DNA from: Methanomassiliicoccales archaeon
GTDB lineage: Archaea; Thermoplasmatota; Thermoplasmata; Methanomassiliicoccales; UBA472
NCBI GenBank assembly: GCA_035527755.1
Contig: DATKZX010000017.1
Span: forward strand, 1-50,990
Reading direction: 5' to 3'
Length of the DNA: 50,990 nt
Shown: piece after piece, positions 5,677 to 48,857 of the stretch
How the letters are laid out: the number at the start of each line of letters is the position of its first letter
How positions within the stretch are numbered: position 1 is the first letter of the stretch
The notes under the pieces: generated by a model
The model's database searches: none
What the model was told of the DNA's origin: nothing
What the model saw: the letters and a program-made list of their open reading frames with translations, nothing else
Made by a program: the position numbers and the translations under genes

Positions 5677-5774
5677 GCCGAGGTGGCCCAGACCGGTAAG
5701 GCGCGAGCCTGGAAACTTTCCGCCAGCTAGCTCGTGGCGGCAACGCCTCGGGAGTTCAAATCTCCCCCTCGGCG
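5677..5774 (+). tRNA. tRNA-Ser (anticodon GGA) with a 14-nt intron
   Basis: Acceptor stem GCCGAGG pairs with CCTCGGC, with discriminator G at 5774 and an encoded CCA at 5775-5777. There is a long variable arm (GGCG GCAA CGCC) and a T arm GGGAG-TTCAAAT-CTCCC, as expected for a type II serine tRNA. The anticodon stem is CGAGC (5704-5708) with GCTCG (5730-5734). The loop is interrupted by an intron; after removal it reads CTGGAAA with anticodon GGA. The gene sits alone between the RCK gene and the ACT-domain gene. Confidence 0.95.
5715..5728 (+). other. tRNA-Ser intron at position 37/38 with bulge-helix-bulge motif
   Basis: Bases 5709-5712 (CTGG) pair with 5723-5726 (CCAG), giving the 4-bp central helix. 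It is flanked by 3-nt bulges AAA (5713-5715) and CTA (5727-5729). Cutting after the second base of each bulge, as archaeal splicing endonuclease does, removes exactly 5715-5728 and leaves the 7-base loop CTGGAAA. This is the canonical intron position. Confidence 0.85.
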
Positions 5775-5839
5775 CCATCTTTTCATCCAGATGATTTTTT
5801 GGTGGGCATCGCGCATTGAAAGGATTAGATAATCGAACC

Positions 5840-44017: not shown

Positions 44018-47000
44018 TCACATCACGGAATATTCCGGCCAACGTTCGATGATCAGTTTCCCTTCTACGATGGTATACCGCACCGTTCTGGTCCCTACCT
44101 CGAACTTGAGCTCGGGATCGTCCCGGACCAGGTCCTGGAACCGGTCATTGGTGAGCAAGAGGAGGTCCTCGTCCACGGCCAGATCGATGATGGAGCGGTC
44201 GTCGCCGACCGCGTCCTCCAATAATATAGTCGTTCCGGTCCGGCGGGACTCATCGGCGAACCACCGTCCCATCGATGCGTGCTCTTCCTCCCCCATATCC
44301 TTACGCAGCCTTGGTCCCGCTATCACGAACACCTTGCTGAAGCCGTACGAGCCTTTCAGTTCCTGATAGCACCGTTCCAACTGTCCCGCCGAAGGCGCCT
44401 TGATATGATCTCCATGCCTGGAAACGTCGTTCCCGTCCACGACCACGGCGTCGATGGGCGGCGGGCCGACGATGGCCGCCGGGGTCCTAGGAGGATCTGG
44501 CAGGTTCGGAACCGGTCCATCGGCTGCTTCCGGACCCCTCGTTCCGGAGGACGGTTCGAAGGCCGGCACTAGCTCCGGGACCTCTCCGATCTCGGACAGG
44601 TCCTCGATGCCGCCACGGACCGGAACATCCTCCGCGGACATGGTCCCGGGGACGAACATCTCCACCAGGTGCCCGTCGATCTCTTCGGAGCGCAGCCTGC
44701 AGGAGCAGAAATCCCGCAGTCTCTTCCAGAGGTAGGCCGAACGGTAGTGCTTCGTCTCCGCTGGCACGCTGTCGAGCAAGGCCCGGGAGCATACCACCAC
44801 CAATCGCTCCTTGGCCCTGGAGAAGATCACGTTGGTGCGGTTCAGGTCCAGTATGAACTCCGCGGTGCTGGCGATCGATGAGGGATCGCTCTGCGTGCCG
44901 GAAACGATTATGGTCGGCCGCTCTCCGCCCTGCAACCTTTCCACCGTATCGATGATGTCCACCTGGACATCGTACTGCGACAGCCGCTCCCGCAACAACG
45001 TCCGCTGCGCCCGGTGCGGGGTCATGACCGCCACCGATCCCTTGTCCCCGGTCATCCGTTCCACGATGCGTTCGATGACGTCGGCCTCGAACACGTTCAG
45101 CTTCTTGGACCGGTCCTCGTCGTGCACCACTAGGAACACGCCGCCGTCCTGCCACACCGTGGACCACATGTCGTCCGTCGGCGCCAGGCTACGCTGGACG
45201 AAGGGCTTCGAACCCCCGAGCTCGATGTCGTCCCATCTGTACAGCCCGGAAATGAGCTCCCGGACCTCGAAAGGCAATCGGTAGGTCACGTCCAAAGCGG
45301 AGCGGACCACCCTTCCTTTCGGATCGGGAAGGGAGCTGCCTATGGCCGCCACGGCGTCGTAGGCGCTGAAATGCGGCTGGTACTTGATCACCGGGGGACG
45401 GTCCTCGTCCTCCCAGTCGTGGGAGAGGATGGGGGACAGCTGGCGATGGTCCCCGGCCAGCATGATCCTCCCGTCCTCCTTCAGGACGGTAGCAAGAGCA
45501 AGAAAGTGAGGGAAGACCATCATGCTGGCCTCGTCGACGATGAGATCGGCCGCCCTCAATGACGGCGCCTTTCCCTTGGCGAAGGCCTTGTCGGCGTTCA
45601 TGACCAGCTTGAGCACGTCGTTGGTGGTGCCTCCTACGAACACGTGCCTCCCTTGCACGGACCTCAGCAGATCCACCACGTAGGCCTCGTCGATCCGCCG
45701 TCCTTCCAATCTGACCACCGAGAAAGGGATGGGCGTCCGTCCGGACCGCAGCAGCGCCGCCTCAAGATCGTCCTTCCGTGCCGCTATCTCCTCCATGAGG
45801 CGATCGACGGCGGTGTGGGTGCTGGTGGCGATCATGGTGACCTGGTCGGGTCCGGCCACGTGCCCCCTGAGCAACGTGGCCACGGCCGCGGTGACCGTCT
45901 TGCCAGTTCCCGGGGGACCCTGCATCAGCTGAACGCGGGCGTTCAACCCGTCCAGCACGGCCTGGACCTGGTCCTCCCCCAGATGGTGGTCGTCCATGAC
46001 GAACTCCCTGAGCAGTCGGGTGAAAGAGTTCAGATCACCGGGCTTCAGCAACGGTACTTCCGGGATATCGGGCGCCGACAGGTCGAACCATCCGAATATC
46101 GGCAGCGGGCCGCAGGCGCTCAAGCGCTGGTCCACGCGGTTGGAGACGTGATCGGAAGGGCTTTCGTCCAAGGTCACCATCCCCAGACCGTCCACGTCCG
46201 GGGAGTTGGAAAGAACGTAACGGTTCCTGTGACCGGGCATCAGCTTCACCTTGGCCACCAGATTGTCGAAGTCCAGGATCTCCATCATTCCTGTCGCTCC
46301 GTGGTAAAGGAAATCTCCTGCCGACTGTCTTTCGTAGACCTCGCCATTGAAGGGCGTTATCCTGACCCAGCTATCCTTTTCCACGGTGGTCTTGTCCCGG
46401 AACGCGGACACCGATTCCCCGAACCGCTCCAGGTCTAGACGTCCTACCAGGAAGTCCTCGATCCTCCCATTTTCGTCCTCCTCGGTGAGCAGCATCGTTC
46501 TGGTCAGCGGAAGACAATCGCCGGACATGACCCGGTCCAAGGGCGGGAGGCTCATGGCGGACGACCATTCGTTCAGACGAACGTGATGGTCCAGGCGCAG
46601 CAGGTCCAGGGCCGCCTGGGCCGGACCTACCACTCCCAAGGAGAAGGAGGTCAGATCGGGAAGGTCCAGGGGTATCTTGGTGATGCTGGCGTTCTTGGGT
46701 TTGATGCGTTCCTCCATCCAGCGCAGGGCGTGCACCCTGGCCCGCAGATAGGCCCTCAGCATTCCGGGGTCGGCGGCCTTCTGGAACTCGCGGATCGCTT
46801 TGCGCACATTTTGCTTGATGTCCGCCGCCTCCGGGTCGGGAAGCGTGCCCCACAGGGCGTGGAGATACGGTACTGGCAACGAATCATGGAAGCGGCAGCG
46901 CACTTCGAAATCGGTGTACGCGGTCGCCTCCGCCGATGCCTTGGACCATTCTCCTTCCTCGTCCAGTTGCAGCGGGGAATGGAAGTCGAACAATCCCTGA

Positions 47001-48688
47001 TGGAACGCCCGGTCCAGGTCCACCGTGCGGTCGCCGACGGTGCGTGTCCAATGATACCTCTTTCCGAACCATTTGAGGGAGGAGGCCACCACCAGCCCGC
47101 GTCCGGTCCAGCCGGTGGCGTAGCGGTCATAGACCTCGTCCTGCAGGCAGCTGTAGATGAGCTGTTCCAGCGTCTCCCGGCAGCCCAGAAGGTGCGTCAG
47201 GCTCTCCAGCAGGTCGGAGCCGCAGCGGGTGCAGCCCTCGATCAGCCTGACCAGCTCGTTCCGGGACCAAACGTAGAAATGCAGCGGCACCCGCTCCTTG
47301 CCGCCCACCTTGGCCACGGTTTTCAGCAGTCCGTTGAAGAAGGAGACCATCAGTTTACGTTCCGATTCGTTGTCACGGACGTAATCCCCGCTCCAAGGGG
47401 CGTCGCGGAAGAAGATGACCTCTGACCCTTCCACCTCCCGTGATCGCTCTCCATCGCCCTCCTGTACGCGTTCCATGACCTCCGGCCGCCGCACCCATCT
47501 CCCCTCGGCGTTCCTTTCCCCGGAGGTCTCCAACACGCCCTCGCTGTTGGTCACATGGGCCGAGAGGGCCATGATGCGGTCCTCGGTGTAATCGTAATCC
47601 ACGGAAAGGAATATCCGCACCAGCGGTTCCCCGTCGATGGTATGTGTCGGCAGGTTCCCGAACCCCGCTCCCGGAAGGGCCGCCACCTGATGACCGGCCC
47701 CCCCAGGCATCGTGGCCGATCGGACCGCGGCCCTGGTGACCAACTTTTCCAGGTTATCGGTGAAGGTCGGCACCGCCCTGATCCGGCGGCCCTGGTCGCC
47801 GCGAACATCGAGCGCGGCCAAGCTCTCCAGGTCATGGATGCCGTGGTCCCTCAGCGTTCGGGCGGTAGAGATATCCATTCCCAGGAGCTCCAGTCTTTTC
47901 TGCCGGGCGCTCTCGGGCAGGCAGTTCACGTTGAGCACGCAGGAATCGCATTTGCCATCCAGTTGGAACGGCAGTTCGTCCAGGTCCGTTCTGGATATCC
48001 GTTCCAGGTCGCCGTCCCTGGCAAGCAGGCGCCGGGCGTCCTCCCTCTCCATCTCCAGGTCCAGGACCTCGGCCGAGATCAGGTCCTCGGTTCCCCCCTC
48101 TTCCTTCAACCGCACCAGCGATCCTAGTACGTCCTCCGGTGGGATCAAGTGGCCGCCGACGACGAGCTCTCCCTGTCCGGCCCGCTCGCGGACCAGCATC
48201 TGATAGATGGCCAATTGGATGCGGTGGTAGGTCTTGTCCTTGCGGCTGGCCTTGCATTCGATGATCCGTAGTCTCGGTCGTCCGCCGTCCCATTCTAGGA
48301 CGACGAAGTCCATCCTTCCGTTGAGGGCGAACTCTCCTACCTTTCCGCTTATCTCCACCTCCCGGGCGAAGAGGCGTTCCCCTGGAGATGCATCTTTCAG
48401 TAAGGTGACGAAGCTCTCCCATCTCAGGCGGGCGGGCTCCCGGTCAGCGCTGCGGTCGTTAAGGGAGGCGTAACCGGCATCGCTCAGGCTCCCTTCCCAC
48501 TCCTCCTCCTTCTTCCTACCGATGGCCTGAAGCACCGGATCGAGAGGATTGAGCACCCGTGAAAAGAAGGGCACCTCTCGGGCCAGGGCGCTGCCGTTCA
48601 GGTCAAGCTTGAAACGGCGGGGGCAGGAGTGGCGTTGCACGTACTCCCCTATCTGCTGCACGTCGATCCTTTGTTCGCCCGTCACCAT
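44018..48688 (-). CDS. Multi-domain nuclease-helicase fusion: Cas4/RecB-like nuclease, SF1 helicase, C-terminal NYN/PIN-like nuclease
   Basis: The 1556-residue protein begins with a PD-(D/E)XK nuclease of the Cas4/RecB kind: C22 in SCPRRFKL, GRMDFVV (D127), ECK (E144, K146), RIQLAIYQ (Q158/Q163), and a cysteine cluster CDSCVLNVNC (C247, C250, C256) that with C22 could hold an Fe-S cluster. A helix-hairpin-helix-like stretch follows (268-295), then a possibly degenerate RNase H-like region from about 357. The helicase is SF1 (Dna2/Upf1-like): Walker A QGPPGTGKT (923-931), LIVDEAS (1049-1055), GDHRQLSP, a YRLP turn, LQGGERPTIIVSG, and RTNVIFSRAKERL (1284-1296). The last 150 residues look like an NYN/PIN domain: VVVDGND (D1418, N1420), DDRSIIDLA (D1496/D1497), and LLLTNDRF (D1515). 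A TATA box sits 29 nt upstream of the ATG. Confidence 0.85.
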   Translation of the reverse strand: MVTGEQRIDVQQIGEYVQRHSCPRRFKLDLNGSALAREVPFFSRVLNPLDPVLQAIGRKKEEEWEGSLSDAGYASLNDRSADREPARLRWESFVTLLKDASPGERLFAREVEISGKVGEFALNGRMDFVVLEWDGGRPRLRIIECKASRKDKTYHRIQLAIYQMLVRERAGQGELVVGGHLIPPEDVLGSLVRLKEEGGTEDLISAEVLDLEMEREDARRLLARDGDLERISRTDLDELPFQLDGKCDSCVLNVNCLPESARQKRLELLGMDISTARTLRDHGIHDLESLAALDVRGDQGRRIRAVPTFTDNLEKLVTRAAVRSATMPGGAGHQVAALPGAGFGNLPTHTIDGEPLVRIFLSVDYDYTEDRIMALSAHVTNSEGVLETSGERNAEGRWVRRPEVMERVQEGDGERSREVEGSEVIFFRDAPWSGDYVRDNESERKLMVSFFNGLLKTVAKVGGKERVPLHFYVWSRNELVRLIEGCTRCGSDLLESLTHLLGCRETLEQLIYSCLQDEVYDRYATGWTGRGLVVASSLKWFGKRYHWTRTVGDRTVDLDRAFHQGLFDFHSPLQLDEEGEWSKASAEATAYTDFEVRCRFHDSLPVPYLHALWGTLPDPEAADIKQNVRKAIREFQKAADPGMLRAYLRARVHALRWMEERIKPKNASITKIPLDLPDLTSFSLGVVGPAQAALDLLRLDHHVRLNEWSSAMSLPPLDRVMSGDCLPLTRTMLLTEEDENGRIEDFLVGRLDLERFGESVSAFRDKTTVEKDSWVRITPFNGEVYERQSAGDFLYHGATGMMEILDFDNLVAKVKLMPGHRNRYVLSNSPDVDGLGMVTLDESPSDHVSNRVDQRLSACGPLPIFGWFDLSAPDIPEVPLLKPGDLNSFTRLLREFVMDDHHLGEDQVQAVLDGLNARVQLMQGPPGTGKTVTAAVATLLRGHVAGPDQVTMIATSTHTAVDRLMEEIAARKDDLEAALLRSGRTPIPFSVVRLEGRRIDEAYVVDLLRSVQGRHVFVGGTTNDVLKLVMNADKAFAKGKAPSLRAADLIVDEASMMVFPHFLALATVLKEDGRIMLAGDHRQLSPILSHDWEDEDRPPVIKYQPHFSAYDAVAAIGSSLPDPKGRVVRSALDVTYRLPFEVRELISGLYRWDDIELGGSKPFVQRSLAPTDDMWSTVWQDGGVFLVVHDEDRSKKLNVFEADVIERIVERMTGDKGSVAVMTPHRAQRTLLRERLSQYDVQVDIIDTVERLQGGERPTIIVSGTQSDPSSIASTAEFILDLNRTNVIFSRAKERLVVVCSRALLDSVPAETKHYRSAYLWKRLRDFCSCRLRSEEIDGHLVEMFVPGTMSAEDVPVRGGIEDLSEIGEVPELVPAFEPSSGTRGPEAADGPVPNLPDPPRTPAAIVGPPPIDAVVVDGNDVSRHGDHIKAPSAGQLERCYQELKGSYGFSKVFVIAGPRLRKDMGEEEHASMGRWFADESRRTGTTILLEDAVGDDRSIIDLAVDEDLLLLTNDRFQDLVRDDPELKFEVGTRTVRYTIVEGKLIIERWPEYSVM

Positions 48689-48722: not shown

Positions 48723-48784
48723 GTGCCAGGAGGTTCTTTTCCGATCGGCGATCACTATCCATGATACTTAAGTATAAAAAATGG

Positions 48785-48857
48785 AGCCACCAGGGAGATT
48801 TGAACTCCCGGCCTGCTGATTACAAGTCAGCCGCTCTACCAGCTGAGCTATGGTGGC
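48785..48857 (-). tRNA. tRNA-Thr (anticodon TGT)
   Basis: Minus-strand acceptor GCCACC/GGTGGC, D arm GCTCAGCTGGTAGAGC, anticodon arm CTGA-CTTGTAA-TCAG with anticodon TGT, and T arm GGGAGTTCAAATCTCCC. Length is 73 nt with no intron. CCA is encoded at 48782-48784. The upstream A/T region at 48883-48897 may hold its promoter. Confidence 0.95.

Follow-up and report, generated by a model that had tools for sequence, protein, structure and literature searches.

A Dna2-like nuclease-helicase with an appended Zc3h12a-type NYN domain in Methanomassiliicoccales, a candidate for defence against foreign DNA

The window, i.e. the whole analysed stretch of 50,990 nucleotides from a contig of a Methanomassiliicoccales archaeon, contains a large open reading frame on the minus strand between a small cupin-like gene and a tRNA-Thr gene. 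The frame is intact over 1556 codons and has no internal stops. The features of the locus are:

44018..48688, minus strand: whole open reading frame of 1556 amino acid residues, composed of a Cas4/Dna2-like nuclease, a linker region, an SF1 helicase and an NYN domain
47894..48688, minus strand: residues 1-265, PD-(D/E)XK nuclease with the predicted Fe-S cysteines C22, C247, C250 and C256 and with D127, E144, K146, Q158 and Y162 (assigned by the PDDEXK_1 match, conservation and Foldseek)
46019..47893, minus strand: residues 266-890, conserved region without a named domain linking nuclease and helicase (confident AF2 model, conserved columns)
44654..46018, minus strand: residues 891-1345, UPF1/Dna2-type SF1 helicase with Walker A (924-931), Walker B (1052-1055), motif III (1079-1086), R1137, Q1253, R1284 and R1291 (AAA_11, AAA_12, AAA_19, AAA_30)
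44462..44653, minus strand: residues 1346-1409, weakly conserved proline-rich linker
44021..44461, minus strand: residues 1410-1556, Zc3h12a-type NYN domain (PF11977) with D1418, D1421 (N in most relatives), D1496, D1497 and D1515
48782..48857, minus strand: tRNA-Thr(TGT), which borders the insertion site on one side and lies 93 bp upstream of the start codon
43574..43927, plus strand: small flanking gene (cupin-like by eye), which borders the insertion site on the opposite side

The Pfam search of the protein returned PDDEXK_1 at residues 80-254 (E 3.5e-11), AAA_11, AAA_12, AAA_19 and AAA_30 at 903-1302 (4.6e-17 for AAA_12) and RNase_Zc3h12a at 1414-1545 (1e-8), all exceeding the curated cut-offs. 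The original prediction of a single 1556-residue polypeptide that joins a nuclease, an SF1 helicase and an NYN domain was confirmed by the intact frame, these domains and the Foldseek and ZC3H12C profile matches given below. The motifs it had named were all found within one residue of where it had placed them: GRMDF at 124-128, ECK at 144-146, QxxxY at 158-162 and C22/C247/C250/C256 in the nuclease, GPPGTGKT at 924-931, DEAS at 1052-1055 and R1284/R1291 in the helicase, and VVVDGND at 1415-1421, DDRSIIDLA at 1496-1504 and TND at 1513-1515 near the C-terminus. Full-length homologues with 47-51% identity occur in other genera, and the comparison with the sister species showed purifying selection on the whole gene (overall dN/dS 0.22), which together indicate an architecture far beyond chance. 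Searches with PADLOC and NCBIfam gave no model that matched the protein from end to end; the PADLOC matches covered helicase or Cas4 stretches only, such as MkoA (2.2e-31, over a part of its model). Literature searches for the nuclease-helicase-NYN architecture found nothing.

The four cysteines flank the nuclease, one on its N-terminal and three on its C-terminal side, and are present in 59 of the 59 aligned bacterial and archaeal homologues. The catalytic set D...ExK...QxxxY is complete, with E144, Q158 and Y162 in 59/59 and D127 and K146 in 58/59 sequences. A profile of residues 1-893 matched the Cas4 structure 4ic1 (E 0.004), and the AF2 model of the same stretch (39 sequences) reached a pLDDT of 87.4 and a pTM of 0.86. 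When this model was searched with Foldseek, Dna2 was the best match (3.7e-4), followed by Cas4 SSO0001 (7.9e-4), with DinG at rank three and EXO5 and AddB lower down. Dna2, Cas4, EXO5 and AddB are Fe-S members of this nuclease superfamily. These data support a nuclease of the Cas4/Dna2/AddB type with a predicted 4Fe-4S cluster. The following region, residues 266-890, had no family match despite its confident model and conserved columns. An RNase H-like exonuclease at residues 340-600 was considered and rejected. In most members its candidate strand SVDYDY does not carry the DxE signature, and therefore a third catalytic centre is not claimed for residues 266-890.

The helicase has AAA_11 and AAA_12 matches, both Walker motifs and the motif VI arginines, as is characteristic of the UPF1/Dna2-like SF1 helicases. 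Its motifs are near-invariant among the homologues (K930, D1052 and E1053 in 59/59, R1284 and R1291 in 58/59). The closest relatives of solved structure by sequence are UPF1, SMUBP-2 and DNA2, and by analogy with the UPF1/Dna2 family the polarity is probably 5'-3'.

On the C-terminal tail, RNase_Zc3h12a (PF11977) scored 35.5 bits, compared to a curated cut-off of 23 bits. A profile built from five NYN tails matched ZC3H12C (1.7e-13), KHNYN (1.3e-10) and ZC3H12A (2.1e-10) as well as ZC3H12B and PRORP2, so the tail can be firmly assigned by sequence to the Zc3h12a-type NYN family. An AF2 model of this domain from a shallow alignment of 3 sequences had a pLDDT of 52, and its Foldseek matches were non-significant, with PRORP2 and ZC3H12C within the top eight. 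Like the NYN domains of Regnase-1/ZC3H12A-C and KHNYN, the tail has the DD and ND motifs, but no CCCH zinc finger was seen, the domain is fused to a DNA nuclease-helicase, and DGND replaces DGSN. In class-level relatives of family f22 (L022-L025), archaeal NYN proteins of the Zc3h12a type were observed on their own, about 167 residues long and with intact DGSN and SND; they are a possible source family of the tail. Another archaeal NYN protein (L030:457-1815 and L031:457-1815, both minus strand) has a weak OST-HTH-associated (OHA) match and recalls the eukaryotic MARF1-type proteins.

The active site of the tail differs between the genera. It reads DGSN, DD and ND in g4 and g7, and DGND, DD and ND in the window, where the full catalytic set DxxN, DD, D is incomplete: D, DD and D are present and N is exchanged for D at position 1421. 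In the sister species the first motif is DGSD and the DD is D-A when counted back from the shared SIIDLA, where the aligner can alternatively place a one-codon insertion. The expected conservation of the C-terminal catalytic acids in homologues held for D, DD and D in the window, g4 and g7, but not for the sister species, which has lost one residue of the DD. A Nei-Gojobori comparison of the window with the sister species, i.e. of two sequences only, gave a dN/dS of 0.11 in the nuclease and 0.20 in the helicase. The NYN domain reached 0.40, about twice the value of the core, whose domains range over 0.11-0.22. These values indicate that in the window's genus the NYN domain is kept but less constrained.

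In this genus the tail may be an appendage that is decaying or has no catalytic role, with the protein working like the plain core; this would fit defence as well as repair. The DGND of the window, the DGSD and the lost DD residue of the sister species and the raised dN/dS favour such a state, to which we give a nearly even chance, but the dN/dS is still below 1, the domain is intact in both species, and the window retains D1418, D1496/D1497 and D1515. Because of the exchange at 1421 and the DD loss in the sister species, we filed the tail of the window as a domain of the Zc3h12a family and not as an active RNase. RNA cutting by it in this organism is doubtful, and a second active nuclease is only putative. 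The proposal of two chemically different nucleases on one protein stood as to both families, which the sequence supports; that both of them cut is only inferred, with N changed to D in the genus and a second substitution in the sister species.

The core without the tail (residues 8-1345) is found at about 70 loci, mostly with 35-44% identity, in cyanobacteria, planctomycetes, proteobacteria, Firmicutes, actinobacteria, Bathyarchaeota, Methanoculleus, haloarchaeal plasmids and Methanomassiliicoccales. In the alignment, all members except four NYN rows end within about 50 residues of C1328. Residues 1370-1412 consist of 30% proline, and this linker indeed marks an appended tail, as had been proposed, since the relatives lack the tail and the NYN rows form one clade. 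That clade has a support of 100 and stands beside plain Methanomassiliicoccales cores, so that one gain of the tail suffices on the tree, indicating that it was gained once. The search for the same architecture in other archaea, which had been recommended, was carried out with the NYN profile on 147 genomes of the order, and the tailed form was found in five related genomes, all of them Methanomassiliicoccales; the scan of named genomes was pattern-based and non-exhaustive, and more fusions may exist. Among the homologues found outside Methanomassiliicoccales, none has an NYN tail. By these comparisons, what is new is the NYN tail on the core, and the core alone (residues 1-1345) makes up a widespread unnamed family. 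Viral contigs gave one helicase-only match among the matches listed, and the matches in phages were also helicase-only.

The NYN profile further matched a degraded stretch in G012 and one fragment in a different operon of G059. In G059 (L169:1-3509, contig C262) the Zc3h12a-type NYN fragment lies at the contig edge. The genes after it are one of 272 aa, one of 618 aa that is ATPase-like, and a radical-SAM gene (NrdG-like by eye), possibly another multi-gene system.

In the window and in the sister species, the nuclease-helicase-NYN gene stands as a single-gene insertion between the cupin-like gene and tRNA-Thr. In four congeners (G003, G004, G006 and G009) the cupin-like gene adjoins tRNA-Thr and the site is empty. 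In genus g7 the fusion is at a different site, between homologues of two divergent neighbours that lie at about 1.4-3.0 kb of the window. The empty sites and the different g7 site imply that the gene moved as a single gene or was lost repeatedly. An integrase-type insertion at the tRNA was not supported, as the search for an att repeat of the tRNA 3'-end found no common word of at least 8 bases. GC and GC3 of the gene are similar to those of its neighbours. In genus g4 the gene after the fusion encodes a Schlafen-group-3 helicase. Elsewhere in the window, a tRNA-Val(AAC) that spans 101 bases and probably contains an intron was seen at 5677-5777 on the plus strand. Within the window's family, Cas1 was not detected in G000, G001, G003, G018 and G021, and a match was obtained in G009, G005, G012, G015 and G011.

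The neighbours of the gene in the window are housekeeping genes and do not form a defence island, and a PADLOC scan of the neighbours at the Methanomassiliicoccales loci found almost no defence genes. The presence of the gene is patchy in the window's family (7/22 genomes). Of the 15 genomes sampled from the sister family f6, 14 have the NYN-less gene, and its flanks are common to several genomes, more like a vertically kept repair gene, which speaks against defence. At five f6 loci (L060, L061, L063, L067 and L084) the NYN-less core keeps a conserved 133-aa neighbour upstream.

The main rival to defence is a chromosomal repair or replication enzyme that would process ends or flaps like Dna2 or AddAB, with the NYN domain removing RNA primers or the RNA of R-loops. 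We consider it rather unlikely. Dna2 is the top structural match with the same domain order, an Fe-S PD-(D/E)XK nuclease followed by an AAA_11/12-type helicase, and the f6 distribution fits. Dna2 itself, a housekeeping replication and repair enzyme, is only about 12% identical over the aligned stretch and has no NYN domain. Against repair stand the patchy presence in the window's family, the empty site in four congeners and the occurrence of the core elsewhere on plasmids and linked to methyltransferases.

This link was found at the following loci:

L038, L044, L047, L052, L054, L062, L070, L071, L072, L075, L081, L096, L097, L098: core and adjacent C5 methyltransferase, a recurrent two-gene pair

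At 14/64 loci the core has a C5-cytosine DNA methyltransferase no more than two genes away. Among the near genes of these loci it makes up 14 of 228, and among those farther away 3 of 662 (Fisher p=1.2e-6, an indicative value since the loci are related). The linked methyltransferases carry the C5 motifs; the genes often overlap, and they occur in several orientations and phyla. Parsimony places six state changes on the tree. Near methyltransferase-linked cores there are genes of Hachiman, DISARM, Dnd/Ssp, SacI and Mrr, as well as integrases. A recognisable restriction enzyme is present in only a few linked loci, namely SacI in Oceanobacillus and on a Haladaptatus plasmid and Mrr in Alteromonas, and therefore the core is the natural candidate effector at the others. 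On the Haladaptatus plasmid (L159:6808-14245) the SacI-family endonuclease, dcm and the core gene are together, with integrases downstream. Because of the methyltransferase at these 14 loci and the Hachiman, DISARM and restriction genes near some of them, the core probably acts as an effector of restriction or defence.

No C5 methyltransferase adjoins the core in the window. The sister species (G001) has a DrmMII-like C5 methyltransferase (L152:198-1229, minus strand), which was rejected as a conserved partner since it is about 2.9 kb from the core, two housekeeping genes and a tRNA lie between them, and an FKBP-like gene takes its place in the window. The window's own genome has no match to it at E <= 0.001. 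The proposed role in defence was therefore strengthened by the methyltransferase neighbours of the homologues and weakened by the housekeeping neighbours in the window.

Several known systems resemble parts of the protein. The proteins with the NCBI product name 'Bifunctional RecB family nuclease/DEAD/DEAH box helicase' (e.g. WP_260644161.1) have PDDEXK_1 and AAA_11/12 and are homologous along most of the length, but are divergent (about 24% identity), lack NYN and carry no assigned function. Hachiman, Gabija, Nhi and Mokosh share the working principle of a helicase coupled to a nuclease, but use other nucleases, and the PADLOC matches are the partial ones over helicase or Cas4 stretches. The UvrD-Cas4 fusions linked to Dcm/Vsr or type III R-M share the PF12705 Cas4-like nuclease with an SF1 helicase, the C5 methylase neighbour and the inferred defence role, whereas their helicase is UvrD-like and not of the UPF1/Dna2 type, and they have no NYN as far as the available part of the paper describes them (Hudaiberdiev et al. 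2017, PMC5704561). That part does not mention the present core family.

In mammals, unwinding by UPF1 licenses Regnase-1 (PMC7145602). The protein could thus be an RNA-centred machine, a one-protein analogue of the UPF1/Regnase-1 pair, in which the Regnase-like NYN domain is served by a UPF1-like motor that unwinds RNA, and the Cas4-like part is secondary. The licensing and the fact that both halves are closest, among solved structures, to the UPF1 and Regnase-1 families speak for it. We regard it as improbable, since nuclease and helicase are conserved in dozens of NYN-less relatives, and within the window's genus the NYN catalytic residues vary but the DNA nuclease residues do not. The analogy is taken as a lead only.

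The best supported explanation, to which we give a probability of about 0.5, is that a DNA-degrading motor like that of Dna2 was recruited for defence or surveillance against foreign DNA and received a Regnase-type RNase-family domain in one archaeal lineage. Methyltransferase adjacency, defence-gene neighbours, patchy presence, empty sites and the different g7 site support the role in defence. It is weakened by the housekeeping neighbours, the few PADLOC defence genes at the Methanomassiliicoccales loci, the missing end-to-end model and the altered NYN site. The data show the domain layout, the conservation of the catalytic residues in nuclease and helicase, the one origin of the fusion, its insertion as a single gene and the neighbouring methyltransferases of the relatives; the activities, the substrate and the immune role are inferred. 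The SF1 motor, probably 5'-3', would load on a DNA end, gap or fork and unwind it, and a single strand would be fed through the Fe-S nuclease and degraded. In many bacteria and some archaea the partner C5 methyltransferase would mark the host DNA and the helicase-nuclease would act as the restriction effector. In Methanomassiliicoccales, where the partner is absent, structural cues such as ends, ssDNA or R-loops may replace methylation. The NYN tail might cut the RNA met by the helicase, either viral transcripts during their synthesis or the RNA strand within hybrids; with a damaged active site it could instead be a nucleic-acid-binding module.

The furthest-reaching form of this explanation is a single-polypeptide immune effector, in which the Dna2-like Fe-S nuclease-helicase destroys foreign DNA and the Regnase-type RNase cuts transcripts on the same motor. 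Such an effector would correspond, in an archaeon and in fused form, to the mammalian UPF1/Regnase-1 pair, with an unnamed but widespread family of methyltransferase-linked restriction enzymes as its base; we hold this to be unlikely. A single archaeal protein unites a helicase of the UPF1 kind with an RNase domain resembling that of Regnase. Should the core be a restriction effector, it would represent a widespread ATP-dependent system, made up of the nuclease-helicase and a C5 methyltransferase, that reaches from cyanobacteria to methanogens and is unnamed in the defence libraries searched. The NYN-tailed form is a test case for whether the attacks on DNA and RNA can be coupled on one motor.
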